A stretch of DNA of 64,000 bases from NCBI RefSeq assembly GCF_009805705.1, contig NZ_VSMB01000010.1, forward strand, positions 1-64,000. Reading direction: 5' to 3'. This document shows positions 26,905 to 37,667 of the stretch, piece after piece. The number at the start of each line of letters is the position of its first letter. Within the stretch, counting starts at the first letter, position 1. The notes below the pieces were generated by a model. It saw only the letters and a list, made by a program, of their open reading frames with translations, was not told where the DNA came from and did no database searches. Made by a program: the position numbers and the translations under genes. This DNA is from Ruania rhizosphaerae (GTDB lineage: Bacteria; Actinomycetota; Actinomycetes; Actinomycetales; Beutenbergiaceae).

Positions 26905-27717
26905 TCACAGATAGTCCTCCAACCGGGCGATCGTGAAGCCGGCCTCGTCGGCCATCCGCTGGATCTGCTCGAGGTTCGCCGGTAGATCGTCGGTGAAATG
27001 GGTGAGGATGATGTCGCCCGGCAGCAGCTCGTCGCCGTGCGCGAGCGAGACGTGCCCGTCCTCGGCCGTACCGCTCCAGTGCACGACGGCGGTGGTGCCG
27101 CATGCGGCCGCGGCTTCGGTGGTGCCCTCATCCGAGGCACCGTAGGGGGCACGTAGGAGGGAGCCGATCGCACTGGGGTCGAAGTTTTCCTGAAGCATCT
27201 CCACCATCCCGCAGATCTCCTCCTCCTGACCGGTCGGCGTGAGTTGCCTCAGGTCCGGGTGATTCATGGTGTGCGAGTGCACGCGGTTCCCGAGGGTCAC
27301 GTACTCCTCGAAGTACGAGGCGTGCAGGCGCACCGGTTCGGCGTTCAGGAAGAGCGAGACCGGCATCTGGTGCTCTCTGACCAGGTCCAGTGCCCGCGGG
27401 CTGGGGTAGTGGCCGTCGTCGATGGTCACGAAGATCACGCGGTCGTCGGTGTTGACCTGGTGGATCACCTCGTCCGTCCCGCCACCATCGCTCGCCTGTT
27501 GATCGGTGGCGCCCATCGGGTGCGGCTCGGACCCGGAAGAGAGAGTGCCGGTCACCATGTCACGGAGCGCCCGCACGGCTTCGGGCCCGACGGCGGCGGC
27601 CACCGTGGCACAGGTCAGCACCAGCACTGTGGTCACCGCGGCTATCAGGCGACCATGCGGCCGGCGCCGGTCCTGAGGTGTGTGGGGGGAGGAACTGGAG
27701 ATCTGTGTCGTGGTCAT
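26905..27717 (-). CDS. polysaccharide deacetylase (NodB homology), secreted/anchored
   Basis: This 270-residue protein has an N-terminal signal or anchor (about 22-45) and a carbohydrate esterase family 4 domain. NodB motifs are VTIDDGHYPSP (motif 1, TFDDG-like), HSHTMNHPDL (motif 2, metal-binding His pair), RAPYGA (motif 3), HWSGTAEDG (motif 4 region) and ILTHF (motif 5). It would deacetylate a surface glycan or peptidoglycan. The ATG at 27717 is chosen because upstream in-frame sequence is antisense to the divergent acyltransferase. Phased boxes in its promoter link it to the regulator at 31193-31867. Confidence 0.87.
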   Translation of the reverse strand: MTTTQISSSSPHTPQDRRRPHGRLIAAVTTVLVLTCATVAAAVGPEAVRALRDMVTGTLSSGSEPHPMGATDQQASDGGGTDEVIHQVNTDDRVIFVTIDDGHYPSPRALDLVREHQMPVSLFLNAEPVRLHASYFEEYVTLGNRVHSHTMNHPDLRQLTPTGQEEEICGMVEMLQENFDPSAIGSLLRAPYGASDEGTTEAAAACGTTAVVHWSGTAEDGHVSLAHGDELLPGDIILTHFTDDLPANLEQIQRMADEAGFTIARLEDYL

Positions 27718-27760
27718 GCCTCGACGGTGCCGATCCGGTGGTGCAACCGCGTGGCCGCGA

Positions 27761-27779
27761 TGTCGCAGCTGTGTCGCAA
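27761..27779 (-). promoter_or_regulatory. two phased GCGAC boxes facing the deacetylase gene
   Basis: On the minus strand TTGCGACA (27779-27772) and CTGCGACA (27768-27761) repeat with 11-bp phasing. The same octamer pair occurs upstream of the SGNH lipoprotein gene at 31928-31946. The spacing fits tandem binding by an OmpR/MtrA-type response regulator. Confidence 0.6.
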
Positions 27780-27788
27780 CGTCCCTCT

Positions 27789-27815
27789 GTGACCTGCGTG
27801 CGACCTTTCGGCGAC
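27789..27815 (+). promoter_or_regulatory. three phased GYGAC boxes facing the acyltransferase gene
   Basis: On the plus strand GTGAC (27789-27793), GCGAC (27800-27804) and GCGAC (27811-27815) repeat exactly every 11 bp, ending 34 nt before the acyltransferase ATG. Together with the minus-strand pair at 27761-27779 they fill the divergent promoter. Confidence 0.55.
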
Positions 27816-27849
27816 CGGGAGCCGACGCAGAGTCGGGAGGGTCGCCGGT

Positions 27850-29142
27850 ATGTCCCAGCCGACCAGTCCAGCAACCCGGCGCTCTACCCTGTCCGTCGTG
27901 CCACCGTCCAGGCCGCCACGGACTGGGCACATCGTCTCGCTCGATGGGCTGCGCGGCATCGCCGTTGCCGGGGTGCTGCTCTTCCACACCGGTCATCTCA
28001 GGGGAGGCTTCCTGGGGGTCGACCTGTTCTTCGTCCTCTCCGGCTTCCTCATCACCTCCCTGCTGCTGCGCGAGATGCGTGGCGGGAGCATCTCGTTGAC
28101 CGGCTTCTGGGCGCGCCGGCTCCGGCGGCTCTTTCCGGCGCTCGCCGCGATGCTGGGCGCCGTCACGCTCACCGTGTGGGGACTGGAACGCGCGGGAGCT
28201 GCGATCGAGACCGATCTCGTACGGACCACGCTCGCCGATGGCTTCTGGGTGCAGGTGAATCTGGCGAACTGGCACCTTCTTGCCCAGGACGCCGGCTACT
28301 GGGAGGCGTTCGGCCAGGCGCGCGTCTTCTCTCACCTGTGGAGCGTCGCCGTCGAGGAGCAGTTCTACCTCGTGTGGCCGATCCTGCTGATCGTGGCGCT
28401 GACGCTCGTGCGGCGCCGGTCCGAGGGGACGATGCAGTGGGCGGTCCTGAGCGTGTGCGGCGTGCTGGCGGCGGCGTCCCTCGCCCTGATGGTGCTGCTC
28501 TACGACCCTGCCGACTCCACCCGTGTGTACACGGGCACCGACACACGGGCGTTCTCGTTGCTGCTCGGTGCGGCGGCAGCGACCGCACCGCTCCAGCGCT
28601 GCTTCGCGGCGCTCCTCAGCGTGCTGGGCCGTGCGGCAGGGGCAGTGCTCACCGTGCTGGTAGCGGCACTGCTGACTCCGTGGTTCCTCGTCGACGGGAC
28701 GAGCTCGACCACGCTGTTCACCGGTGGGCTGTTCCTGCACGCCCTGGCAGCCGCCGCGCTCATCGGCATGTGCGCGGCCGCCCATGCCCGGACCGGGAGA
28801 ACGCCTCGTCCGCTCGGCACAGTGCTGGAGGCACCGCCGCTGCGCTGGCTCGGGCAGATCTCCTACAGCCTCTACCTCTGGCACTGGCCGGTAATCGTGC
28901 TGCTCCCGCCGGAGCGTGCGAGCATCGACGGAACGCTTCACACCGTGGTGGTACTCGGCCTGTCGGTGGCGCTGGCCGCGGCATCGACGCACCTGGTGGA
29001 GAACCCGCTGCGGTTCCGGGCGGGCTGGACGCGAGGCCGCGCCGGTGCCCTGCTCTTCGTCCTCGTCAGCCTTGCGCTGCTGGGATTGTGGTCGCTCCTG
29101 CCGGAGCCGGCGGGGCCCCAGATCGACATCGGCAACCTGTGA
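27850..29142 (+). CDS. acyltransferase-3 family membrane O-acyltransferase (OafA-like, no SGNH domain)
   Basis: This 430-residue protein has about ten membrane helices. Family motifs include SLDGLRGIAVAGVLLFHTGH (catalytic His region), FLGVDLFFVLSGFLITSLLL, FWARRLRRLFP and WSVAVEEQFYLVWPI, and near the end GQISYSLYLWHWPVI. It transfers acyl groups to extracytoplasmic glycans. OafA proteins often carry a C-terminal SGNH domain; here the protein ends shortly after the last helix, while a separate SGNH lipoprotein lies 3 kb away. GGGAGGG (27835-27841) precedes the ATG. Confidence 0.9.
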   Translation: MSQPTSPATRRSTLSVVPPSRPPRTGHIVSLDGLRGIAVAGVLLFHTGHLRGGFLGVDLFFVLSGFLITSLLLREMRGGSISLTGFWARRLRRLFPALAAMLGAVTLTVWGLERAGAAIETDLVRTTLADGFWVQVNLANWHLLAQDAGYWEAFGQARVFSHLWSVAVEEQFYLVWPILLIVALTLVRRRSEGTMQWAVLSVCGVLAAASLALMVLLYDPADSTRVYTGTDTRAFSLLLGAAAATAPLQRCFAALLSVLGRAAGAVLTVLVAALLTPWFLVDGTSSTTLFTGGLFLHALAAAALIGMCAAAHARTGRTPRPLGTVLEAPPLRWLGQISYSLYLWHWPVIVLLPPERASIDGTLHTVVVLGLSVALAAASTHLVENPLRFRAGWTRGRAGALLFVLVSLALLGLWSLLPEPAGPQIDIGNL

Positions 29143-29154
29143 GGACCGGCCCGG

Positions 29155-29646
29155 CTACAGGAGCGGGCAGGTGCGCGGTTCTGTCAGCGGGTTTGAGTTC
29201 GTGGCAGGGACGTCGGTGAAGGTCAGACGCACCTGCATCTCCGGTGAGCCCCCCGCCTGAACGTGCGTTGCCAGCACCGTGCAGACGATCTGGTCCACGC
29301 CGTCGGAGGTGACATCGCCGGTCGGCAGCGGCAGACGCACATCGATGACGTCCTCTCCGACGGTCACATGGGTGGTGTGCACCGCCACCTCCGCGATCCC
29401 GGTCGCCAGACCGGACCCGCCTGGACCGGTCAGCAACAAGGAGACAGCCTCCTGCATGGACCCCAGACGCCGGGTCTGACGTTCCTGGGGCACCAGATCG
29501 CCGTCGTCGAGGAAATACAGAGTCACACCGGGCGCCAGACCGGTGGGTGCCTGCGGGCCCTGCTCCACCGGGGAGGGTTGCACCGCGCAGCTGCCGACTC
29601 CGGCTAGGGCTACCAGGAGCGCCACGTGGCGCAGCCATCTGGTCAT
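29155..29646 (-). CDS. GerMN-domain lipoprotein (LpqB/CseA-like, two-component partner)
   Basis: This 163-residue lipoprotein has lipobox GVGSC (Cys about 20) and a GerMN domain (about 40-155), with LYFLDDGDLVPQERQTRRL and EAVSLLLTGP, and ends PRTCPLL. GerMN lipoproteins form operons with MtrAB-type or CseBC systems and modulate their sensor kinases at the membrane. Here it is the third gene of a regulator-kinase-lipoprotein operon, its ATG overlapping the kinase stop by 4 nt. It is shorter than LpqB, which has an extra C-terminal propeller. Confidence 0.85.
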   Translation of the reverse strand: MTRWLRHVALLVALAGVGSCAVQPSPVEQGPQAPTGLAPGVTLYFLDDGDLVPQERQTRRLGSMQEAVSLLLTGPGGSGLATGIAEVAVHTTHVTVGEDVIDVRLPLPTGDVTSDGVDQIVCTVLATHVQAGGSPEMQVRLTFTDVPATNSNPLTEPRTCPLL

Positions 29647-31196
29647 CGTTCCTCACCTTCCGGCGTGCTGCCCGCCCGGGGCAGCCACATCGTGAACTGG
29701 GCTCCGCCGTCGGGGGTGTTCGCTGCGGTGAGACTCCCGCCGTGGAGTGCCGTGTTCTCCCAGGCGATGGCGAGCCCGAGTCCGCTCCCGTGGCTGCGCG
29801 TACGGGCGGCATCGGCCTTGTAGAAGCGCGTGAAGATCCGCGGCAGCACATCCTCACCGATGCCGGGGCCGGAGTCGGCTACGGTCACCTCGACGGCGTC
29901 CGGTGCGGCGGAGAACGCGATCCGTACCGGTGGTGCGCCGTGCCGGCGGGCGTTTCCGACCAGGTTGGCCAGGACGACGTCGAGGCGCCGCCGGTCCGCC
30001 TGCACGACCAGGTCGGCGCCCTCGGGAGAGGTGAGGGTGACGTCCTGCGTCCAGCCGCGGCTACGGACGCAGTCGCGGGCGAGGGCGAGAAGATCGGTGG
30101 GCTCCAGCCGCATCGCGGCCGTGCCGGCATCGAATCGCGCGATCTCCATGATGTCCTCCACCAGGCGCACCAGCCGCCGGGTCTCGACCAGTGCCATCCG
30201 GGCCGACTCCTGTGCGGCGTCCGTGTCCGTGCTCGTGCTCGCGTCCGTGCCGGGGTGGGGGGCGGACCTGTGCTGGAAAGCGTCGTCGAGCACTTCCACG
30301 GCCGCGGTGAGTGTCGACAGTGGCGTGCGCAGCTCATGGGAGACATCGGCAGCGAAGCGCCGAGCGTCGTCCTGGATCCGGGCCATCGAGACCATCGACT
30401 GCTGGAGCGACTCGGCCATCTCGTTCACCGTGCTGGTGAGCTGCGCCAGCTCGTCGACACCGCGCGGATGCGTCCGGGCGTTGAGGTCGCCGTCGGCCAG
30501 CCGCCGGGCCGTGGTGCGCAGTCGCCGTACCGGCGCGAGCACAGTGCGGGAGGCGAGCAACGCCAGCAGCACGGCGACCGGCAGCACGAGCGCGGAGGTG
30601 CCGATGGCGGCGCGCGTGAGAGCGTCGATGTCAGCGTCGACGGGGGAGAGGTCCTGTGCTCGGTAGACCTCGACCCCGGAGGGACTGCGGGTGCCATCTG
30701 GTGCGGTGAGCATCACCGGGGCTCCGATGACCACCCAGGGAGTGTCTTCCACCATGACGCGTTGTGTGAAGGTGCCCCCTGGCGCCGTGGCGTTGGCGAC
30801 GGCGTCGCGCAAGTCACTGGTGATGAGCCCGTCTTGGGCGATGAAGATGCCAGAGGCCGACTGCGCGTCCTGGTAGACCGCGAGGGCATGCGGCCCGACC
30901 GCGGCGCGGAGCTGGTCGAGTGCATCCCGGCTCGGCGGGTACTCGACTGTGGGTGCGGCGGCGGTCACCTGCGCGACAAGGGCGTCGGCATGCTGTTGCT
31001 GGCTGGAGTCGGTGAGCGCCCGAGAGGCGTACTGTGCGCCCGCCCACGCGGCCGCGCTCGCTCCGAGGACTGCGATCAGGACGAACACGAGGACGAATCT
31101 CCCGCGTAGCCCACGCAGCCCACGCAGTCTGCCCAGCCCCTGCGGCCTGCCCGGGCGGAGCCTCCGCCGTCGCTCCTGACGCGGTGCCACACTCAC
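29643..31196 (-). CDS. sensor histidine kinase (MtrB-like)
   Basis: This 517-residue kinase has a basic N-terminus with short GLRGLRG repeats, TM1 (about 33-55), a large extracellular sensor domain (about 56-195), TM2 (about 198-217), HAMP (about 218-270), HisKA with His287 in FAADVSHELRTPL, and HATPase_c with NLVGNARRHG, DSGPGIG and GSGLGLAIAWE. It lies between regulator and GerMN lipoprotein with 4-nt overlaps, matching the MtrAB-LpqB order. It probably senses envelope state and controls the surface-modification genes on either side. Confidence 0.92.
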   Translation of the reverse strand: MSVAPRQERRRRLRPGRPQGLGRLRGLRGLRGRFVLVFVLIAVLGASAAAWAGAQYASRALTDSSQQQHADALVAQVTAAAPTVEYPPSRDALDQLRAAVGPHALAVYQDAQSASGIFIAQDGLITSDLRDAVANATAPGGTFTQRVMVEDTPWVVIGAPVMLTAPDGTRSPSGVEVYRAQDLSPVDADIDALTRAAIGTSALVLPVAVLLALLASRTVLAPVRRLRTTARRLADGDLNARTHPRGVDELAQLTSTVNEMAESLQQSMVSMARIQDDARRFAADVSHELRTPLSTLTAAVEVLDDAFQHRSAPHPGTDASTSTDTDAAQESARMALVETRRLVRLVEDIMEIARFDAGTAAMRLEPTDLLALARDCVRSRGWTQDVTLTSPEGADLVVQADRRRLDVVLANLVGNARRHGAPPVRIAFSAAPDAVEVTVADSGPGIGEDVLPRIFTRFYKADAARTRSHGSGLGLAIAWENTALHGGSLTAANTPDGGAQFTMWLPRAGSTPEGEER

Positions 31197-31867
31197 ACCG
31201 GGCCGAATCGGTATCCGAATCCGCGCACGGTCTGGACGTACTCGGGGTGGGCGGGGTCGTCCTCGATCTTCGCCCGCAGCCGCATGATCCCGTTGTCCAC
31301 CAGCCGCGAGTCCCCGAGGTATCCGTGCCCCCAGACCTCCTCCAGCAGCTGTTGCCGGCTGAAGACACGGCCGGGGGAGCGAGACAGCGTCAGCAGGAGG
31401 CGCAGTTCCGTCGGCGTCATCGGAACCGGAGCGCCACCCAGGGTCACCGTGAGCGACTCGGTGTCGATACGCAGGGAGCCGTGGGAGCGGACGCCGTCGA
31501 GATCGCTGACCGCCCGGCGCAACACCGCCCGGATACGGGCGTCGAGCACCGCCGGCTGGACCGGCTTCACGACATAGTCATCGGCCCCTGCCTCTAATCC
31601 GCCGACGACATCGAGGTCGTCCGTGCGTGCGGTGAGCATGATGATCGGTGCCTGCGAGTCCAGACGGAGCCGACGGCACACCTCGAATCCGTCGATCCCC
31701 GGGAGCATCAGGTCGAGGACCACGATGTCGGGCGCCTCCTCGGTGAATCTCGACAACCCGTTCTCACCGGTGGCAGCCGTGATCATGGTGTAGCCGTACC
31801 TTCCCAGGGCCAGTTCCAGGCTGCGTCGGACCAGGGGGTCGTCTTCGATGAGGAGAACTGAGGTCAC
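31193..31867 (-). CDS. OmpR-family response regulator (MtrA-like)
   Basis: This 224-residue protein has a receiver domain (LLIEDDPLVRRSLELALGRY, VVLDLMLPGIDGFEVCRRL with phospho-Asp, IIMLTART, YVVKPVQP) and a winged-helix domain (MTPTELRLLLTLSRSPGRVF, DNGIMRLRAKIEDDP, VRGFGYRFGPV). GTG 31867 is chosen as it begins the receiver. It heads the operon with the kinase and GerMN lipoprotein. The phased GYGAC repeats at 27.8 and 31.9 kb resemble MtrA-type boxes and are its likely targets, including its own promoter. Confidence 0.92.
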   Translation of the reverse strand: MTSVLLIEDDPLVRRSLELALGRYGYTMITAATGENGLSRFTEEAPDIVVLDLMLPGIDGFEVCRRLRLDSQAPIIMLTARTDDLDVVGGLEAGADDYVVKPVQPAVLDARIRAVLRRAVSDLDGVRSHGSLRIDTESLTVTLGGAPVPMTPTELRLLLTLSRSPGRVFSRQQLLEEVWGHGYLGDSRLVDNGIMRLRAKIEDDPAHPEYVQTVRGFGYRFGPV

Positions 31868-31927
31868 GCCAGCCAGTCTAGGAACGAACCCGCCGCGCCG
31901 GAGGCCGGAGCCGGGGAGGACCGTTCT

Positions 31928-31946
31928 TTGCGACAGGATTGTGACA
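31928..31946 (+). promoter_or_regulatory. two phased TTGYGACA boxes before the SGNH lipoprotein gene
   Basis: TTGCGACA (31928-31935) and TTGTGACA (31939-31946) repeat with 11-bp phasing in the divergent region between the response regulator and the SGNH gene. The first octamer and the phasing are the same as at 27761-27779. Confidence 0.6.
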
Positions 31947-31990
31947 CCGACGTGCCGGGGCGGCGAAATCCGGCGTGCAGAGTCGACCAC

Positions 31991-32770
31991 ATGATGATCA
32001 AGCACACCAGGACTACAGCGACGACCACCGCACTCCTCGCAGTATTCATGCTGGCGTCCTGTGGTGGCGGGCCCGGCGAAGACACCGGCGACGAGACCGG
32101 CTGGACCGAGTCGGAGGCGGCGGCTGACGCCGGCGTCTCACCACTGCTCCTCCTCGGAGACTCGGTGGCGGCAGGTCAAGCTCTGCCGCTGTCCCAGGCG
32201 GTGGCGTCCAGCGGGGCGTACTTCGTTGACGAGACCTCCGCCGGGGGCGGCAACGTGGTGGGGCCTAACGCGGAGGCCCAGTGGGAGGAGCTGCCGGAGC
32301 GTCTCGCAGAGGCGGAGGGTGGCGTCGTCGTCTACCAGATCACCAGCTACGACTGGGGCACGCGGGAGGAGCAGCGCGAGGCGTACGTGCGGCTCGCGAG
32401 CGTAGCCGCCGATTCCGATGCGGACCTGCTGCTCGTGTCCATGCCCCCCATCGAGCCCGACGAGTTCTACGCCGACCACCTGGATGAGCTGGCCGCCACC
32501 TCCGAGGTCGCTGCCGAGGTGGCGGCACAGGACGACGGCACCGAGTTCCTCGATGCCTCCGAGGTCTGGGGCGAGGAGTACTCGCGCGAACACGACGGGC
32601 AGGTCTACCGGAGCAGTGATGGGATCCACACGTGCCCGCAGGGTGCCGCCGAGTTCGCGAGTTGGCTGCTCGATGAGCTCGTTGGGCTGTATCCGGGCTT
32701 CGAGCCCGCTGACGCAGAGGAGTGGGCCAACGCAGGGTGGTCCTCGGACGAACTGTTCACCGGCTGCTGA
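31991..32770 (+). CDS. SGNH-hydrolase-like lipoprotein
   Basis: This 259-residue lipoprotein has lipobox MLASC (Cys about 23), an acidic linker, and an SGNH fold resembling the domain fused to OafA acyltransferases. The nucleophile block is LLLLGDSVAAGQ and the last block is SDGIHTCPQGAAEF with the Asp-x-x-His pair. It probably adds or removes acyl groups on a surface glycan together with the acyltransferase at 27850-29142. ATG 31991 (ATGATG) is chosen by the signal peptide. It is divergent from the MtrA-like regulator. Confidence 0.8.
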   Translation: MMIKHTRTTATTTALLAVFMLASCGGGPGEDTGDETGWTESEAAADAGVSPLLLLGDSVAAGQALPLSQAVASSGAYFVDETSAGGGNVVGPNAEAQWEELPERLAEAEGGVVVYQITSYDWGTREEQREAYVRLASVAADSDADLLLVSMPPIEPDEFYADHLDELAATSEVAAEVAAQDDGTEFLDASEVWGEEYSREHDGQVYRSSDGIHTCPQGAAEFASWLLDELVGLYPGFEPADAEEWANAGWSSDELFTGC

Positions 32771-32960: not shown

Positions 32961-33719
32961 ATGATCGAGGTGGAGGCGCTGACGAAGTGCTACGGGCCCA
33001 CCAGGGCCGTGGACGGGTTGACCTTCACGGCGCAGTCGGGCACGGTGACGGGCTTCCTCGGTCCGAATGGCGCCGGCAAGTCGACGACGATGCGGATCAT
33101 CGTGGGGCTCGAACGCCCGACATCGGGCAGGGCCACGATCGACGGTCAGCGGTACGCGGATCTCGTGGCGCCGCTGCAGGCGGTCGGCGTCATGCTCGAC
33201 GCCCGCTCGGTGCACCCCGGGCGGACGGCCTTCCGCCACCTGCTGGCGCAGGCGCGCACCCATGGCATCTCGCGTTCGCGGGTGGATGAGGTGATCGAGA
33301 TGACCGGGCTGGAGTCGGTCGCAGGCCGCCGAGCGGGGACCTTCTCGCTCGGGATGGGGCAGCGCCTGGGGATTGCCGGTGCCCTCCTCGGCGACCCGCA
33401 CACGCTGATCCTCGATGAACCGGTCAACGGTCTCGACCCCGACGGCGTCCTGTGGGTGCGCGGACTCGTCCGTGACCTTGCGGCGCAGGGCCGGACCGTT
33501 CTCCTCTCCTCGCACCTGATGCACGAGCTGGCCCTGTGCGCGGACCGAGTGGTGATCATCGGAAAGGGGCGTCTGCTCGCTGACGCCTCGGTCCCCGAGC
33601 TCACGGCCGAAGGTGGATCGCTCGAGGATGCTTACCTGAAGCTGACCTCAGATGCGGTGCAGTACCGGGGCCGGAGCGCCACGGGTTCTGTCGTCCCCAT
33701 CACGGGAGTGACCCGATGA
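32961..33719 (+). CDS. ABC exporter ATP-binding protein (ABC-2 type)
   Basis: This 252-residue ATPase has Walker A GPNGAGKSTTMR, signature FSLGMGQRLGIAGAL (LSGGQ variant typical of lantibiotic/BcrA-type exporters), Walker B LILDEPVNGLDPDG and switch His in LSSHLMHEL. It starts the operon with two ABC-2 permeases followed by a NarL-type two-component system, so it probably exports or resists a membrane-active compound. ATG 32961 has AGGAGAA upstream and the stop overlaps the next gene by 4 nt. Confidence 0.9.
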   Translation: MIEVEALTKCYGPTRAVDGLTFTAQSGTVTGFLGPNGAGKSTTMRIIVGLERPTSGRATIDGQRYADLVAPLQAVGVMLDARSVHPGRTAFRHLLAQARTHGISRSRVDEVIEMTGLESVAGRRAGTFSLGMGQRLGIAGALLGDPHTLILDEPVNGLDPDGVLWVRGLVRDLAAQGRTVLLSSHLMHELALCADRVVIIGKGRLLADASVPELTAEGGSLEDAYLKLTSDAVQYRGRSATGSVVPITGVTR

Positions 33720-34597
33720 GCGCGTCCGCATCTTCTCCCACCGCCACGTCGGCCCGCCCGCCCGCTGTGTCCGGCCGAGGCGCGACCTTCGGGCGCGTGA
33801 TCGCCGCGGAGTGGACCAAGATCACCAGTCTGCGGTCCTCGTACCTGCTCGCAGCCGTCACCGTCGCCGTGTCCGGGGCTCTCACCTACCTGTCGGCGAA
33901 CGCTTCCTCAGGTGACCCGGGATTCGACCCGCTCGGCTCACTCACCTCGGCACTCGTCCTGACGCCGATCGGACTTCTCGTGCTCGGCGTGCTCGTGGGA
34001 ACGGGAGAGTTCAGCACCGGGACCTATCAGAGCACCTTCACGGCAGTGCCACGGCGTCTGCCCGTGCTCGCCGCTCAGGTGGTGGTCACTGCCGCATTCG
34101 CACTCGTGACCTCGCTGGTGGCCGTGGGCGCAGCGGTCCTCGGAATTCTGCCGGCGGCCGGCTCCCGAGGAATCACCGTGGACCTGACGGGGGAGCAGAC
34201 GATGCAGATCCTCGCCGGAATGGTCATCTATCCCATGGGTATGGCGCTGTTCGGTATGGCCATCGGTGCGCTGCTGCGACGCCCGGTCCGTGCCGTCGTC
34301 ACTACGGTGACGCTGACCCTTGTGCTCCCCATCGTGCTCATGCTCGCGGCCGATATGGCGACCGACCCGATGGCCCCGAGCCAGCCCGGGAGTTCCCCGC
34401 CGGCACAGGCCGTGGTCAACACCGCCGTCACCTTCTCGCCGAGTGGGGCCGGTTCGCTGCTGACCGTTCCGGAAGGCAGTGGCGTCGAGGGCGCCCCTGA
34501 CCTCGGCCGGTGGGGCGGGGCAGGTGTTCTCGGTGCCTGGATCCTTCTCCCGCTCGCAGGGGCCGCCGTGCGCCTGCGCACCCGCGACGCGACCTGA
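33716..34597 (+). CDS. ABC-2 type permease, first of a tandem pair
   Basis: This 293-residue membrane protein has a cytosolic Ser/Pro-rich start and then the ABC-2 motif FGRVIAAEWTKITSLRSSYL before TM1. About six helices follow, with the conserved GTGEFSTGTYQSTFTAVPRR loop. The next gene encodes a clearly related protein, so the exporter is probably a heterodimeric permease. It couples to the upstream ATPase gene through a 4-nt overlap. Confidence 0.87.
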   Translation: MSASASSPTATSARPPAVSGRGATFGRVIAAEWTKITSLRSSYLLAAVTVAVSGALTYLSANASSGDPGFDPLGSLTSALVLTPIGLLVLGVLVGTGEFSTGTYQSTFTAVPRRLPVLAAQVVVTAAFALVTSLVAVGAAVLGILPAAGSRGITVDLTGEQTMQILAGMVIYPMGMALFGMAIGALLRRPVRAVVTTVTLTLVLPIVLMLAADMATDPMAPSQPGSSPPAQAVVNTAVTFSPSGAGSLLTVPEGSGVEGAPDLGRWGGAGVLGAWILLPLAGAAVRLRTRDAT

Positions 34598-34605
34598 GGA
34601 GCTCG

Positions 34606-35469
34606 ATGAATCGCGCGACCAGTACTCCTCAGCACCGGCTGGAATCCACGCGCCCCGGGTCGCCGTCCCCGACCACAGCACCCGCGCGGCCCGGCGTCAC
34701 GTTCACCCGCGTTCTCGCCGCGGAGTGGACCAAGCTGCTCAGTCTGCGTTCGACGCTGTGGACCGCAGTGGGAACGATCCTCGCGGCGGCCTCGCTCGCC
34801 TACGCACTGGGTCTGTTCGTCCGCCCCGGCGACGACCAGTCCGGGGCGTCGCTGATCGTCTCCGGCTACCTCCTTGCCCAGCTCGGCGCCCTGGTCCTGG
34901 GTGTTCAGGTGGGAACGGGCGAGTACGGTGCCGGTACCTTCAGAGCCACGTTCACCGCTGTTCCCCGGCGCCTGCCGGTGCTCGTGGCGCAGGTAGTCGT
35001 CACGATCGTTGCCGCGTTCGGGACGGCGGCCGTTGCGCTCCTCGCCTCGTACCTGGTGACGATCGGTGCGCGTTCCGACCACGGGCTCATCGTCACCATC
35101 ACCGACAGTGAGACAGCCCGGATCCTGGCTGGATTCGCCGTGTACCTGGTGGGTATCGCGCTGGTCGGGCTCGGCATCGGGGCGTTGCTGCGTCGCCCCA
35201 GTGCGGCCCTCGTTGCCGGGGTGTTGATGGTGATCGTGATCGACCACCTGCTGGCAGTGAACCCCGGGAAGATCGCCGACACGGTGCGTGCCCTCCTGCC
35301 GGGATCCGGCGCCCGTCTACTCATCGACGACGCCGGGCTCGCTGTGCTGGATGCGACGAGCCTGGGGCCCCAGCTCGGAGCCTGGGGTGGCACGGCCGTT
35401 CTCGGTGGCTGGGTGCTCGCGTTGCTCCTGGCCGGGGGATACCGGTTACGCCGCCATGACCTCACGTGA
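34606..35469 (+). CDS. ABC-2 type permease, second of a tandem pair
   Basis: This 287-residue protein is a paralogue of the preceding permease: FTRVLAAEWTKLLSLRSTLW before TM1 and GTGEYGAGTFRATFTAVPRR between TM2 and TM3. It has about six membrane helices. ATG 34606 is preceded by GAGGA and lies 8 nt after the previous stop. The pair probably arose by tandem duplication and now forms the two halves of one exporter. Confidence 0.87.
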   Translation: MNRATSTPQHRLESTRPGSPSPTTAPARPGVTFTRVLAAEWTKLLSLRSTLWTAVGTILAAASLAYALGLFVRPGDDQSGASLIVSGYLLAQLGALVLGVQVGTGEYGAGTFRATFTAVPRRLPVLVAQVVVTIVAAFGTAAVALLASYLVTIGARSDHGLIVTITDSETARILAGFAVYLVGIALVGLGIGALLRRPSAALVAGVLMVIVIDHLLAVNPGKIADTVRALLPGSGARLLIDDAGLAVLDATSLGPQLGAWGGTAVLGGWVLALLLAGGYRLRRHDLT

Positions 35470-35547
35470 AGCGTGCGCAGCGGGACCTGTCTGCACAGGT
35501 GTGCCGCTCCTGGGCCCCGGCGGGGCGATGGATGGGAGAGTGAGGTC

Positions 35548-36954
35548 GTGACGACTCGGCGCACCACCGGATCCCTGCGGCTTCAGGGTGCGGACTCGGC
35601 CGCGCCACTGACGCAGATGCAGGTCCAGCGGCGGGGGCCGCTGGGGCGCCTCGTCGCCGCCCATCCCCGGATCGCCGACGTGGCGCTGATGGTGGCGGTA
35701 TTGCTTCTCGGGCTGCTGACTGTGCTGTTCGCGTCCCTGACTGTCCGGGGAGCGACTGGCCTGGGCTTGTACCCGCAGGACGCGCGTGCGTCGTGGTTGG
35801 TCCCAACCGCCTGGCTCGTCGGGGCTGCGGTAGGGGCGGTGCTACTGCTCGCCCGGCGAGCGCGGCCGCTGACCGTCACAGTGGCGCTGTGCGTCCTGGC
35901 CGTGGCGTCCCTCGCCAGTGCGGGGGTCCTGGGGGTGGTGGGAGTCTGCCTCGCGTGTGCGCTCTATGCGGTTGCCTCCGACCGGCCTCCGCGGACCACC
36001 TGGCTCAGTTGTGCGGCCGTGTTCGTCACCGTCTCGATCGCGATGTGGTGGTGGCAGGACATCGGTCTGGCAGAGATCTTGCTCTGGAGTGATCCGATCA
36101 TGACGCCGACGGGTGACCCGGTCCACGAGCTCCCCGAGCCGCTCTTCTCGCCGGGGCGTCGCTCGGCGTCGGTGTTCCTCCTGCTCGCTCTCCTGTTGCT
36201 GGGGGTGGCAGCCGGGTCGGGAGTCCGTGCCCGCCGGTTGCACGCTCTCGGACTCATGGAGCGATACGAGGCGATGGCCCGCGATCGCGACAAGAGTGCG
36301 GCGCTCGCCCGCGCTGCCGAGCGGTCACGCATCGCACGCGAAATGCACGATGTCGTCGCGCACAGCGTCTCGGTGATGGTTGCTCTTTCCGACGGCGCTG
36401 ACAAGGCTCTTGAGCGCGCGCCGGACAGTTCACGTCAGGCCCTGCGTGAGCTCTCCAGTACTGGTCGGACGGCCTTGTCGGACATGCAGCGCGTGCTGGA
36501 GGTATTCGATCCCGATGATGCCGACGACGATGGGCACCCCGACCTGGCTGAAACTGCTGCGACTGACCTGCGTACCGTCGTCGAGAGGTTCCGCGTGGCC
36601 GGCCTTCCGGTCACGGCCTCTGGCCTGGAGACAGAGCTCCCGCAGGACACCTCGCTGCGCCTGGCCGTGGTGCGCATCGTCTCCGAGAGCCTGACCAACG
36701 TGCTCCGGCACGCTCCCGGCGCTTCGTCCGTGGAGGTCACGCTGCGGCGCAGCGGCACGTTCGTCGAGGTGGAGATCATCGATTCCGGTGGCACACGGCC
36801 CGGCGCCGGCGGCACCGGGCGGGGTGTCGTCGGGATCCGCGAGCGGGTCGCGCTCCTGGGCGGCCATGCTGAGATCGGCCCGCGGACGGACGGAGGATGG
36901 CGTGTGGCCGTCGTCTTGCCGTCGACCGGTGGCCACGAGGGAGAACGCCGATGA
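35548..36954 (+). CDS. sensor histidine kinase, NarL-partner (HisKA_3) type
   Basis: This 468-residue kinase has about five N-terminal membrane helices (about 48-225), a coiled-coil-like linker, HisKA_3 with the phospho-His in [18 protein letters not shown], and an HATPase domain with [28 protein letters not shown] and [15 protein letters not shown]. It belongs to the membrane-sensor kinases often linked to ABC exporters (LiaS/DesK-like). GTG 35548 has GGGAG upstream. Its stop overlaps the regulator ATG by 4 nt. Confidence 0.9.
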
Positions 36955-37667
36955 CGACAGTGCTGCTGGTAGACGATCAGGCTCTGGTGCGGATGGGATT
37001 TCGGCTCGTCATCGAGACCGAGCCCGACCTCGAGGTGATCGGCGAGGCGTCGGATGGCAGGATCGCGCTCGAGCAGGTGGCGGCGCTCTCGCCTGACATC
37101 GTGCTGATGGACATCCGAATGCCCGGCATGGGCGGAATCGAAGCCACGCAGCGGCTGGCTGCGGAGCACCCGTCCACACGGGTGCTCGTGCTGACCACCT
37201 TCGATGTCGATGAGTATGCGTTCGCCGCATTGCGTGCGGGAGCGAGTGGATTCCTCGCGAAGAACGCCCGCCCGGATGAACTCGTCGAGGCGATCCGCAC
37301 GGTGGCCTCAGGCAGCTCCGTCGTCGCACCGCGGCTGGTGCGCCGCATGCTCGACCTGTTCGCCGCGCACCTGCCCGCCGATACCGGTGCTGGTCACGGC
37401 GAAGACGGGCTCGATCCTCGCCTGCATGTCCTCACCCCGCGAGAGCTCGACGTGCTGCGGTGCGTGGCGGAAGGGCTCTCCAACGCGGAGATCGCCGCGC
37501 GTCTTGTCCTCTCGGCCACGACGGTGAAGACCCACGTCGGCCGGATCCTGGCCAAGCTCGGCGTGCGCGACCGGGTGCAGGCGGTGATCGCAGCGTACGA
37601 GTATGGTCTCGTTGGCGTGGGGGAGGGCGACGGCGGACCTCACCCTGGCCTGCGCCCCATTGACTGA
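36951..37667 (+). CDS. NarL/LuxR-family response regulator
   Basis: This 238-residue protein has a receiver domain with [18 protein letters not shown], phospho-Asp in [18 protein letters not shown] and [16 protein letters not shown]-terminal LuxR HTH follows ([40 protein letters not shown]). ATG 36951 overlaps the kinase. As the last gene of the ABC exporter/kinase unit it probably activates that operon, perhaps through the GATATC boxes at 32.86 kb. It converges with the next kinase gene with only a few bases between. Confidence 0.93.

Follow-up and report, generated by a model that had tools for sequence, protein, structure and literature searches.

A candidate local OmpR/PhoB-type regulon with a rigid promoter layout around a split AT3/PatB-like acyltransferase and a deacetylase in Ruania rhizosphaerae

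Introduction

CseABC/sigma-E is an envelope-stress circuit of Streptomyces. CseBC acts through sigE, which is thought to be its sole target, and responds to wall antibiotics and lysozyme; CseABC/sigma-E mutants of Streptomyces coelicolor are lysozyme-sensitive. MtrAB (with LpqB) and AfsQ1/Q2 (with AfsQ3) also follow a regulator-kinase-lipoprotein operon logic, and MtrA and AfsQ1 are described as reading direct repeats. Streptomyces PhoP recognizes direct-repeat units of 11 nt, two units per dimer. These accounts, and those of the literature on envelope enzymes below, are taken from parts of seven sources (PMC9739842, PMC9558356, PMC6767563, PMC5650626, PMC6988585, PMC7286019, PMC9487903). Here we analysed a stretch of 64,000 nt from Ruania rhizosphaerae (GCF_009805705.1, NZ_VSMB01000010.1, positions 1 to 64,000; "the window"), in which genes for an OmpR/PhoB-type response regulator, a histidine kinase and a lipoprotein lie among genes for a polysaccharide deacetylase, an AT3 membrane acyltransferase and an SGNH lipoprotein. 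The locus resembles CseABC in combining an OmpR-type regulator with a kinase and a lipoprotein, and resembles MtrAB and AfsQ1/Q2 in operon logic and in direct-repeat operators of similar spacing.

The enzymes have described counterparts as well. PatA/PatB and OatA both join a membrane acyl carrier to an extracytoplasmic SGNH enzyme, as the window locus appears to do. One review, in the part drawn on, equates DUF459 with the PatB family and counts Gram-negative members only. A review of AT3 proteins states that the AT3-only protein WecH can replace PatA with PatB, and it asks whether AT3-only proteins need an SGNH partner. In Firmicutes, SigV and GraRS likewise tie envelope signalling to peptidoglycan O-acetylation and lysozyme resistance; they are other regulators, and no operator of the window kind was seen in the parts of the SigV/GraRS literature searched.

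Results

The target promoters of the locus share one layout

A preliminary description of this DNA proposed that one OmpR-class regulator controls the deacetylase, the acyltransferase, the SGNH lipoprotein and itself through boxes phased at 11 bp. Our comparison supports such control as probable. The evidence is a layout common to all three target promoters of the window, defined as boxes at 0 and +11 (degenerate at +22 and +33), an A at +49, a T at +53 and a start codon at +60 or +61. The genes are arranged as deacetylase (26905..27717, minus strand), acyltransferase (27850..29142, plus strand), regulator (31193..31867), kinase (29643..31196) and lipoprotein (29155..29646) as overlapping genes on the minus strand, and SGNH lipoprotein (31991..32770, plus strand).

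Every box string quoted in the preliminary description was found in place, and GYGAC-N6-GYGAC pairs were located at 27762-27777 (minus strand) and at 27789-27804, 27800-27815 and 31930-31945 (plus strand). That description had overlooked the two weaker boxes at the third and fourth positions, as well as a conserved -10-like hexamer and the start codon at a fixed distance. The deacetylase operator (27740..27777, minus strand) reads GCGAC, GCGAC, GCCAC, GCACC in 11-bp steps; its -10-like hexamer CACCGT (27724..27729) covers +48 to +53, and the start codon at 27717 falls at +60. The acyltransferase operator (27789..27826, plus strand) reads GTGAC, GCGAC, GCGAC, CCGAC at the same steps, with the hexamer GAGGGT (27837..27842, +48 to +53) and the ATG at 27850 at +61. 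The operator shared by the SGNH gene and the regulator (31930..31967, plus strand) reads GCGAC, GTGAC, GTGCC, GCGAA, again in 11-bp steps, with the hexamer CAGAGT (31978..31983, +48 to +53) and the ATG at 31991 at +61. On the minus strand, the regulator promoter has the -10 hexamer TAGACT (31875..31880), whose first base is 13 nt upstream of the start codon. Counted from the regulator's start codon, the first box of this operator is 62 nt away, which makes autoregulation likely. A -10-like hexamer that ends 6-7 nt before the start codon is a sign of leaderless mRNA, and leaderless mRNAs are therefore implied for these genes.

Two other assignments were considered and given up. The +33 box was rejected as a -35 element, since about 10 bp separate its end from the -10-like hexamer. 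An extracytoplasmic function (ECF)-type promoter (CGTC before the ATG, seen by eye) was dropped, as the fixed A and T at +49 and +53 fit a sigma-70-type -10 better.

The layout was then compared with the other box pairs of the 4.43-Mb genome, 100 of whose 127 pairs were read with their flanks. The full layout was present in three of the 100, all in the window locus. Among the other 97, the A and the T were present in one, and a start codon at +60/61 followed by a frame that was long or open in two; none combined these features.

The layout is kept in distant genera

The same module is present in three relatives (G002, G003, G004), except that the deacetylase was not found in the orthologous locus of G003. 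In both intergenic regions of these loci the boxes stand at the same phase, and a large part of the surrounding intergenic sequence is diverged. The 11-bp phasing is thus kept between orthologues, a comparison that the preliminary description had proposed. Boxes were also found in ten more loci with regulator, SGNH and acyltransferase genes, from Nocardiopsis, Actinoallomurus, Promicromonospora, Nonomuraea, Phytoactinopolyspora and five further genomes; regulator, kinase, lipoprotein, SGNH and AT3 genes co-occur in distant genera. In the Phytoactinopolyspora locus (L061), a deacetylase-type gene replaces the SGNH gene opposite the regulator, behind the same layout. In that locus the SGNH match range (L061:3756-4397, minus strand) holds a stop codon, which may reflect a broken gene or an alignment-end effect.

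For counting, 22 loci were flagged, and six (L044, L072, L076, L080, L081, L099) were excluded from the module set since their regulators fall outside the clade of the window regulator (56-69% identity). At the regulator promoter, none of these six carried an exact pair of boxes; one pair each was present elsewhere in L072 and L076. Two clade members with a partial module, L183 and L067, were retained. Loci with the same regulator protein were left out as duplicates (L186=L043, L187=L061, L191=L067, L192=L058), and L188-L190 and L193-L196 were kept out of the clade, tree, profile and layout counts and examined separately.

In the 16 loci of the regulator clade, the layout was found in 30 of 34 target-gene upstream regions (SGNH 12/14, acyltransferase 13/14, deacetylase 5/6), and it lies opposite the regulator in 15 of the 16. 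The controls gave one hit in 3,400 dinucleotide shuffles, none in 50 other gene regions of the same loci, and one in 74 non-module regulator loci on either strand. Fifteen regulator promoters were aligned on the first box, with L040 omitted as a near-copy of the window. GnGACA is invariant at 0 and +11, GnGAC returns at +33 (each fixed base in 14 or 15 of 15), and the +22 box is degenerate; A at +49 and T at +53 are each present in 14 of 15. The distance from the first box to the regulator start is 49-53 nt in nine promoters and 61-63 nt in six. These classes are one helical turn apart, as would be expected if the protein has to stay on one side of the helix.

A 23-bp position-specific scoring matrix (PSSM) was built solely from ten regulator promoters outside the genus. 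Its two best matches in the 64-kb window were the deacetylase promoter (27.2) and the regulator-SGNH promoter (23.0), in this order, and the third match scored 11.6. The reversed matrix peaked at 12.0, and 60 random 64-kb sequences peaked at 20.8. The fourth match (11.1) is a further phased pair, GGGAC and GCGAC, over the acyltransferase start codon (27837-27859, minus strand), which may be chance. Overall, the comparisons within the genome and between genera place the operator/promoter layout at these genes and, among the sites examined, restrict it to them.

The enzymes plausibly modify an envelope glycan

The deacetylase (270 aa) matches Polysacc_deac_1 with 72.9 bits (cut-off 23.1). Its translation shows TIDDG, HSHTMNH and RAPYG, which we take to be NodB-type motifs with their roles assumed accordingly. 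PgdA equivalog models score far below their cut-offs. The acyltransferase (430 aa, without a fused SGNH domain) has Acyl_transf_3 as its only Pfam family at E 0.001 (103.3 bits, cut-off 31). The module's membrane partner is therefore Acyl_transf_3, not the MBOAT protein PatA; and AT3 and SGNH are encoded separately, unlike in OatA, where they form one polypeptide.

The SGNH lipoprotein (259 aa, DUF459/PatB type) passes PF04311 (DUF459) narrowly (29.0 bits, cut-off 27.2), covering profile positions 63-196 of 197. GDS at residues 56-58, with the catalytic Ser, and DGIH at 210-213, the DxxH with Asp and His, are invariant in seven homologues. Its predicted structure (mean predicted local distance difference test (pLDDT) score 79.5) has the PatB peptidoglycan O-acetyltransferase as top PDB match; the OatA catalytic domain ranks 15th. 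The second lipoprotein (163 aa) had no Pfam match, the GerMN model PF10646 included; one homologue reached 15.1 of the 23 bits needed for this model and another gave no match. Its predicted structure (mean pLDDT 78.4) matches GerM of Bacillus with E 2.3e-4, and Cys20 is invariant in eight homologues.

These features suggest that the enzymes modify a cell-envelope glycan, plausibly with peptidoglycan as the substrate. The strongest alternative keeps the regulon and changes the substrate: another glycan (capsule, teichoic or teichuronic polymer, arabinogalactan-like polymer or lipoglycan) would be modified, and the acyl group could be, for example, succinyl. We regard this as less probable than modification of peptidoglycan, but as a serious contender. 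AT3 enzymes have many substrates according to the literature parts drawn on, and the sole NCBIfam match of the acyltransferase is SucT, at 130 bits of the 1,275 needed. NodB-type enzymes, too, act on several glycans. Against it, the SGNH protein falls in DUF459/PatB by the Pfam cut-off with PatB as nearest solved fold, and its pairing with a deacetylase recalls peptidoglycan O-acetylation plus N-deacetylation.

Beyond the SGNH gene (32961-37667), translations of open reading frames resemble an ATP-binding cassette (ABC) transporter ATPase, two similar membrane proteins and a NarL-type kinase/regulator pair.

The regulator passes neither the MtrA nor the CseB model

The regulator (224 aa) consists of a receiver (PF00072, 98.5 bits) and a Trans_reg_C winged helix (PF00486, 92.5 bits), with RLVDN in the recognition helix. 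The preliminary description called it MtrA-like. This identification was not supported: the regulator scores 247.3 with the MtrA model (cut-off 300), and the genome's MtrA is another gene elsewhere, at 386.2. The regulator's best NCBIfam model is CseB, which it likewise misses at 267.9 (cut-off 350). No sigma factor of a sigE-type operon was matched by Pfam among the six module proteins, and whereas CseB works via sigE, the window enzymes appear to be direct targets. The kinase has HAMP, HisKA and HATPase_c domains (Pfam); its best NCBIfam model is MtrB (263.8, cut-off 450). The regulator is a member of a separate OmpR/PhoB-type clade.

This clade is patchy. Close homologues of the regulator occur in four of eight genus genomes (E 1e-75), in six of 396 genomes sampled in the order (1e-82) and in 19 of 394 in the class (1e-85); seven candidates per genome were scored in the order and class surveys, and not all of the 19 genomes carry the module or boxes. 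In the recognition helix of clade regulators, RLVD is followed by Asn; most relatives have Ala at this position. An exact box pair lies upstream of 12 of 17 Asn regulators versus one of 73 without Asn, with a spacer of 6 as the peak; with at most one mismatch the counts are 16/17 versus 25/73. In the seven regulators examined separately, the exact pair was found for both with Asn (L189, L193) and for none of five with Ala. In L189 and L193 the A and T are in place; a start codon lies at +61 in L189, and none at +60/61 in L193. Upstream of non-module regulators (e.g. L048-L053, L097), other repeats such as TGACA-N6-TGACA were seen by eye. The sequences suggest that sister clades may read different half-sites at the same 11-bp step.

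It is conceivable that the boxes are read by another regulator, such as the true MtrA, an unassigned paralogue on C39, or an AfsQ1/GlnR-type protein that recognizes GTnAC-n6-GTnAC, and that the adjacent regulator has other targets. The similar repeat spacing described for MtrA and AfsQ1, the true MtrA gene in the genome and the fit of the GTGAC boxes to GTnAC speak for it. The preliminary description had likewise related the boxes to GTNAC-type sites; the spacing agrees with this, but five of the seven named boxes are GCGAC and lie outside GTnAC. In addition, the boxes track this clade rather than MtrA. We therefore consider reading by another regulator unlikely; MtrA might still co-bind alongside the adjacent regulator. 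The window regulon also differs from those of MtrAB and AfsQ1/Q2 in being local, among the sites examined, rather than pleiotropic.

Predicted activation from the four-box operator

Taken together, the locus is quite probably a self-contained regulon, in which the adjacent regulator would activate two envelope-modifying functions, an N-deacetylase and an O-acyltransferase split between an AT3 and a PatB-like protein. The regulon is likely to be local among the sites examined, consisting of the AT3 acyltransferase, the SGNH lipoprotein, the NodB-type deacetylase and the regulator itself. Binding of the regulator to the boxes and activation from them are what we infer from this arrangement. In PhoB-type activation, the operator lies just upstream of the -10, in place of the -35. 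The window operators share this geometry and the 11-nt direct-repeat units with the Pho boxes of PhoB/PhoP, but the half-site differs, the four-unit layout has a fixed start codon, and the targets are not phosphate genes.

In the proposed mechanism, the histidine kinase would receive an envelope signal, with the GerMN-like lipoprotein perhaps as a modulator. Once phosphorylated, the regulator would bind in tandem dimers to four half-sites in 11-bp steps, two of them strong and two weak, and via the weak pair would take over the -35 function. RNA polymerase would then be recruited to the weak conserved -10-like hexamer and give leaderless mRNAs. The AT3 protein would carry an acyl group through the membrane for transfer to an envelope glycan by the PatB-type SGNH lipoprotein (plausibly as peptidoglycan O-acetylation), and the NodB-type enzyme would N-deacetylate the glycan. 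Together, the three enzymes may blunt muramidases and tune the wall.

The opposite sign of regulation, with boxes as repressor sites and the genes kept off until a signal relieves them, seems improbable to us. OmpR-family proteins can repress, and the boxes extend to about 10 bp from the -10. On the other side, all aligned promoters have the operator upstream of the -10, where it replaces the -35; this is the position of PhoB-type activation.

The boxes are ordinary in frequency but not in placement

The genome scan for enrichment of GYGAC-N6-GYGAC that the preliminary description had proposed gave a mixed outcome: the bare pattern is not enriched, whereas its refined forms are concentrated at these promoters. 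In the window, five bare pairs were observed versus 3.27 (standard deviation 1.84) expected, and at least five occurred in 26 of 100 shuffles; in the genome there were 127 versus 100 for the reversed pattern. Neither frequency is significant, and bare-pattern enrichment was dropped as evidence. Four of the five window pairs, on the other hand, sit in two intergenic stretches (27718-27849 and 31868-31990, 255 bp in total). The bare pattern is thus ordinary in frequency, and its placement is far from chance.

A refined motif with flanks, TGYGACMNNNNKGYGACM, gave six genome matches versus none for the reversed control, and four of the six are window-locus sites. Over eight genus genomes it gave 26 matches versus 13 for the control; 11 are in the locus or its orthologues, which leaves 15 at roughly the background level. 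The two matches outside the locus in the window genome (C22 and C38) have no promoter layout, and a wider regulon beyond the locus was rejected on this ground. The four-box motif, with at most one mismatch allowed, has one match in the window genome, at the acyltransferase promoter with 0 mismatches; the reversed control likewise has one. In relatives, G004 and G003 have two matches each, all four in the orthologous locus, and of the two in G002 one is in the locus. In the four genus members that lack a close regulator the count is zero (G001, G005, G007) or two (G006), and the reversed control gives 0 to 3 per genus genome. Tandem GTGAC/GCGAC arrays also occur outside the module at G006:C3:9931-9968 and G002:C1:1473705-1473742, the latter a near-perfect 11-bp tandem repeat.

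That the boxes are short GC-rich strings chosen after the fact, as the bare frequencies alone would allow, is contradicted by the conservation of the layout against its shuffled controls, the transfer of the PSSM between genera and the full layout in three pairs versus none of 97 others, and has a negligible chance of being right.

Discussion

Several observations weigh against a single regulator acting on all of these promoters, or against the function given to the enzymes. The layout was not found opposite the regulator in L183, and it is missing at the L180 deacetylase, the L047 SGNH and acyltransferase genes and the L061 SGNH gene. The genes missed in L047 and L061 may be operon members, as the stretches before them look by eye like coding sequence of neighbouring module genes. 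The acyltransferase site of the window scores 6.1 with the PSSM, below several unrelated matches, because C, not A, follows its boxes; it is assigned by its four-box array and the layout. In the tree, the Asn group sits on one branch (Shimodaira-Hasegawa-like approximate likelihood ratio test (SH-aLRT) 85), so the association of Asn with the boxes counts as a single event and gives no independent proof. Co-evolution of residue and site was rejected as independent evidence for this reason, and a Fisher p-value was not used. In L045 (Nocardia), a regulator with Asn occurs with a kinase and a lipoprotein, and no boxes, SGNH or acyltransferase gene were found nearby. L057, on a short contig of a metagenome-assembled genome (MAG), has a regulator with Ala, yet an exact pair and the full layout on the divergent strand. 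For the SGNH protein, the block III Asn is not evident in the alignment with the seven homologues, and hydrolases and esterases also match its predicted fold.

With these points included, our results argue for an OmpR/PhoB regulon whose promoter grammar is unusually rigid and which is built around a deacetylase and a split AT3/PatB-like acyltransferase. No description of this two-component system was found in the literature searched, and it is apparently undescribed. A broader proposal is more tentative, and we hold it with somewhat less than even confidence: actinobacteria may possess a dedicated two-component system that is patchily distributed and distinct from both MtrAB and CseBC, and its entire regulon would be a split O-acyltransferase (AT3 plus PatB type) with an N-deacetylase. 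OatA and PatA/PatB chemistry would be combined here in a Gram-positive hybrid with a single activator, and a rigid promoter (four boxes, -10, leaderless) would predict regulon members from sequence alone.

If correct, the finding would supply the operator code of an actinobacterial two-component system that has no name yet, and would place envelope O-acylation and N-deacetylation under one switch. It would also tie a DUF459/PatB-type protein in Gram-positives to an AT3 partner. With near-identical promoters in several genera, the AT3 and SGNH genes would be co-regulated and so offer a convenient test of AT3-SGNH partnership, and the promoter grammar would permit regulon calls from sequence wherever a close regulator homologue occurs.

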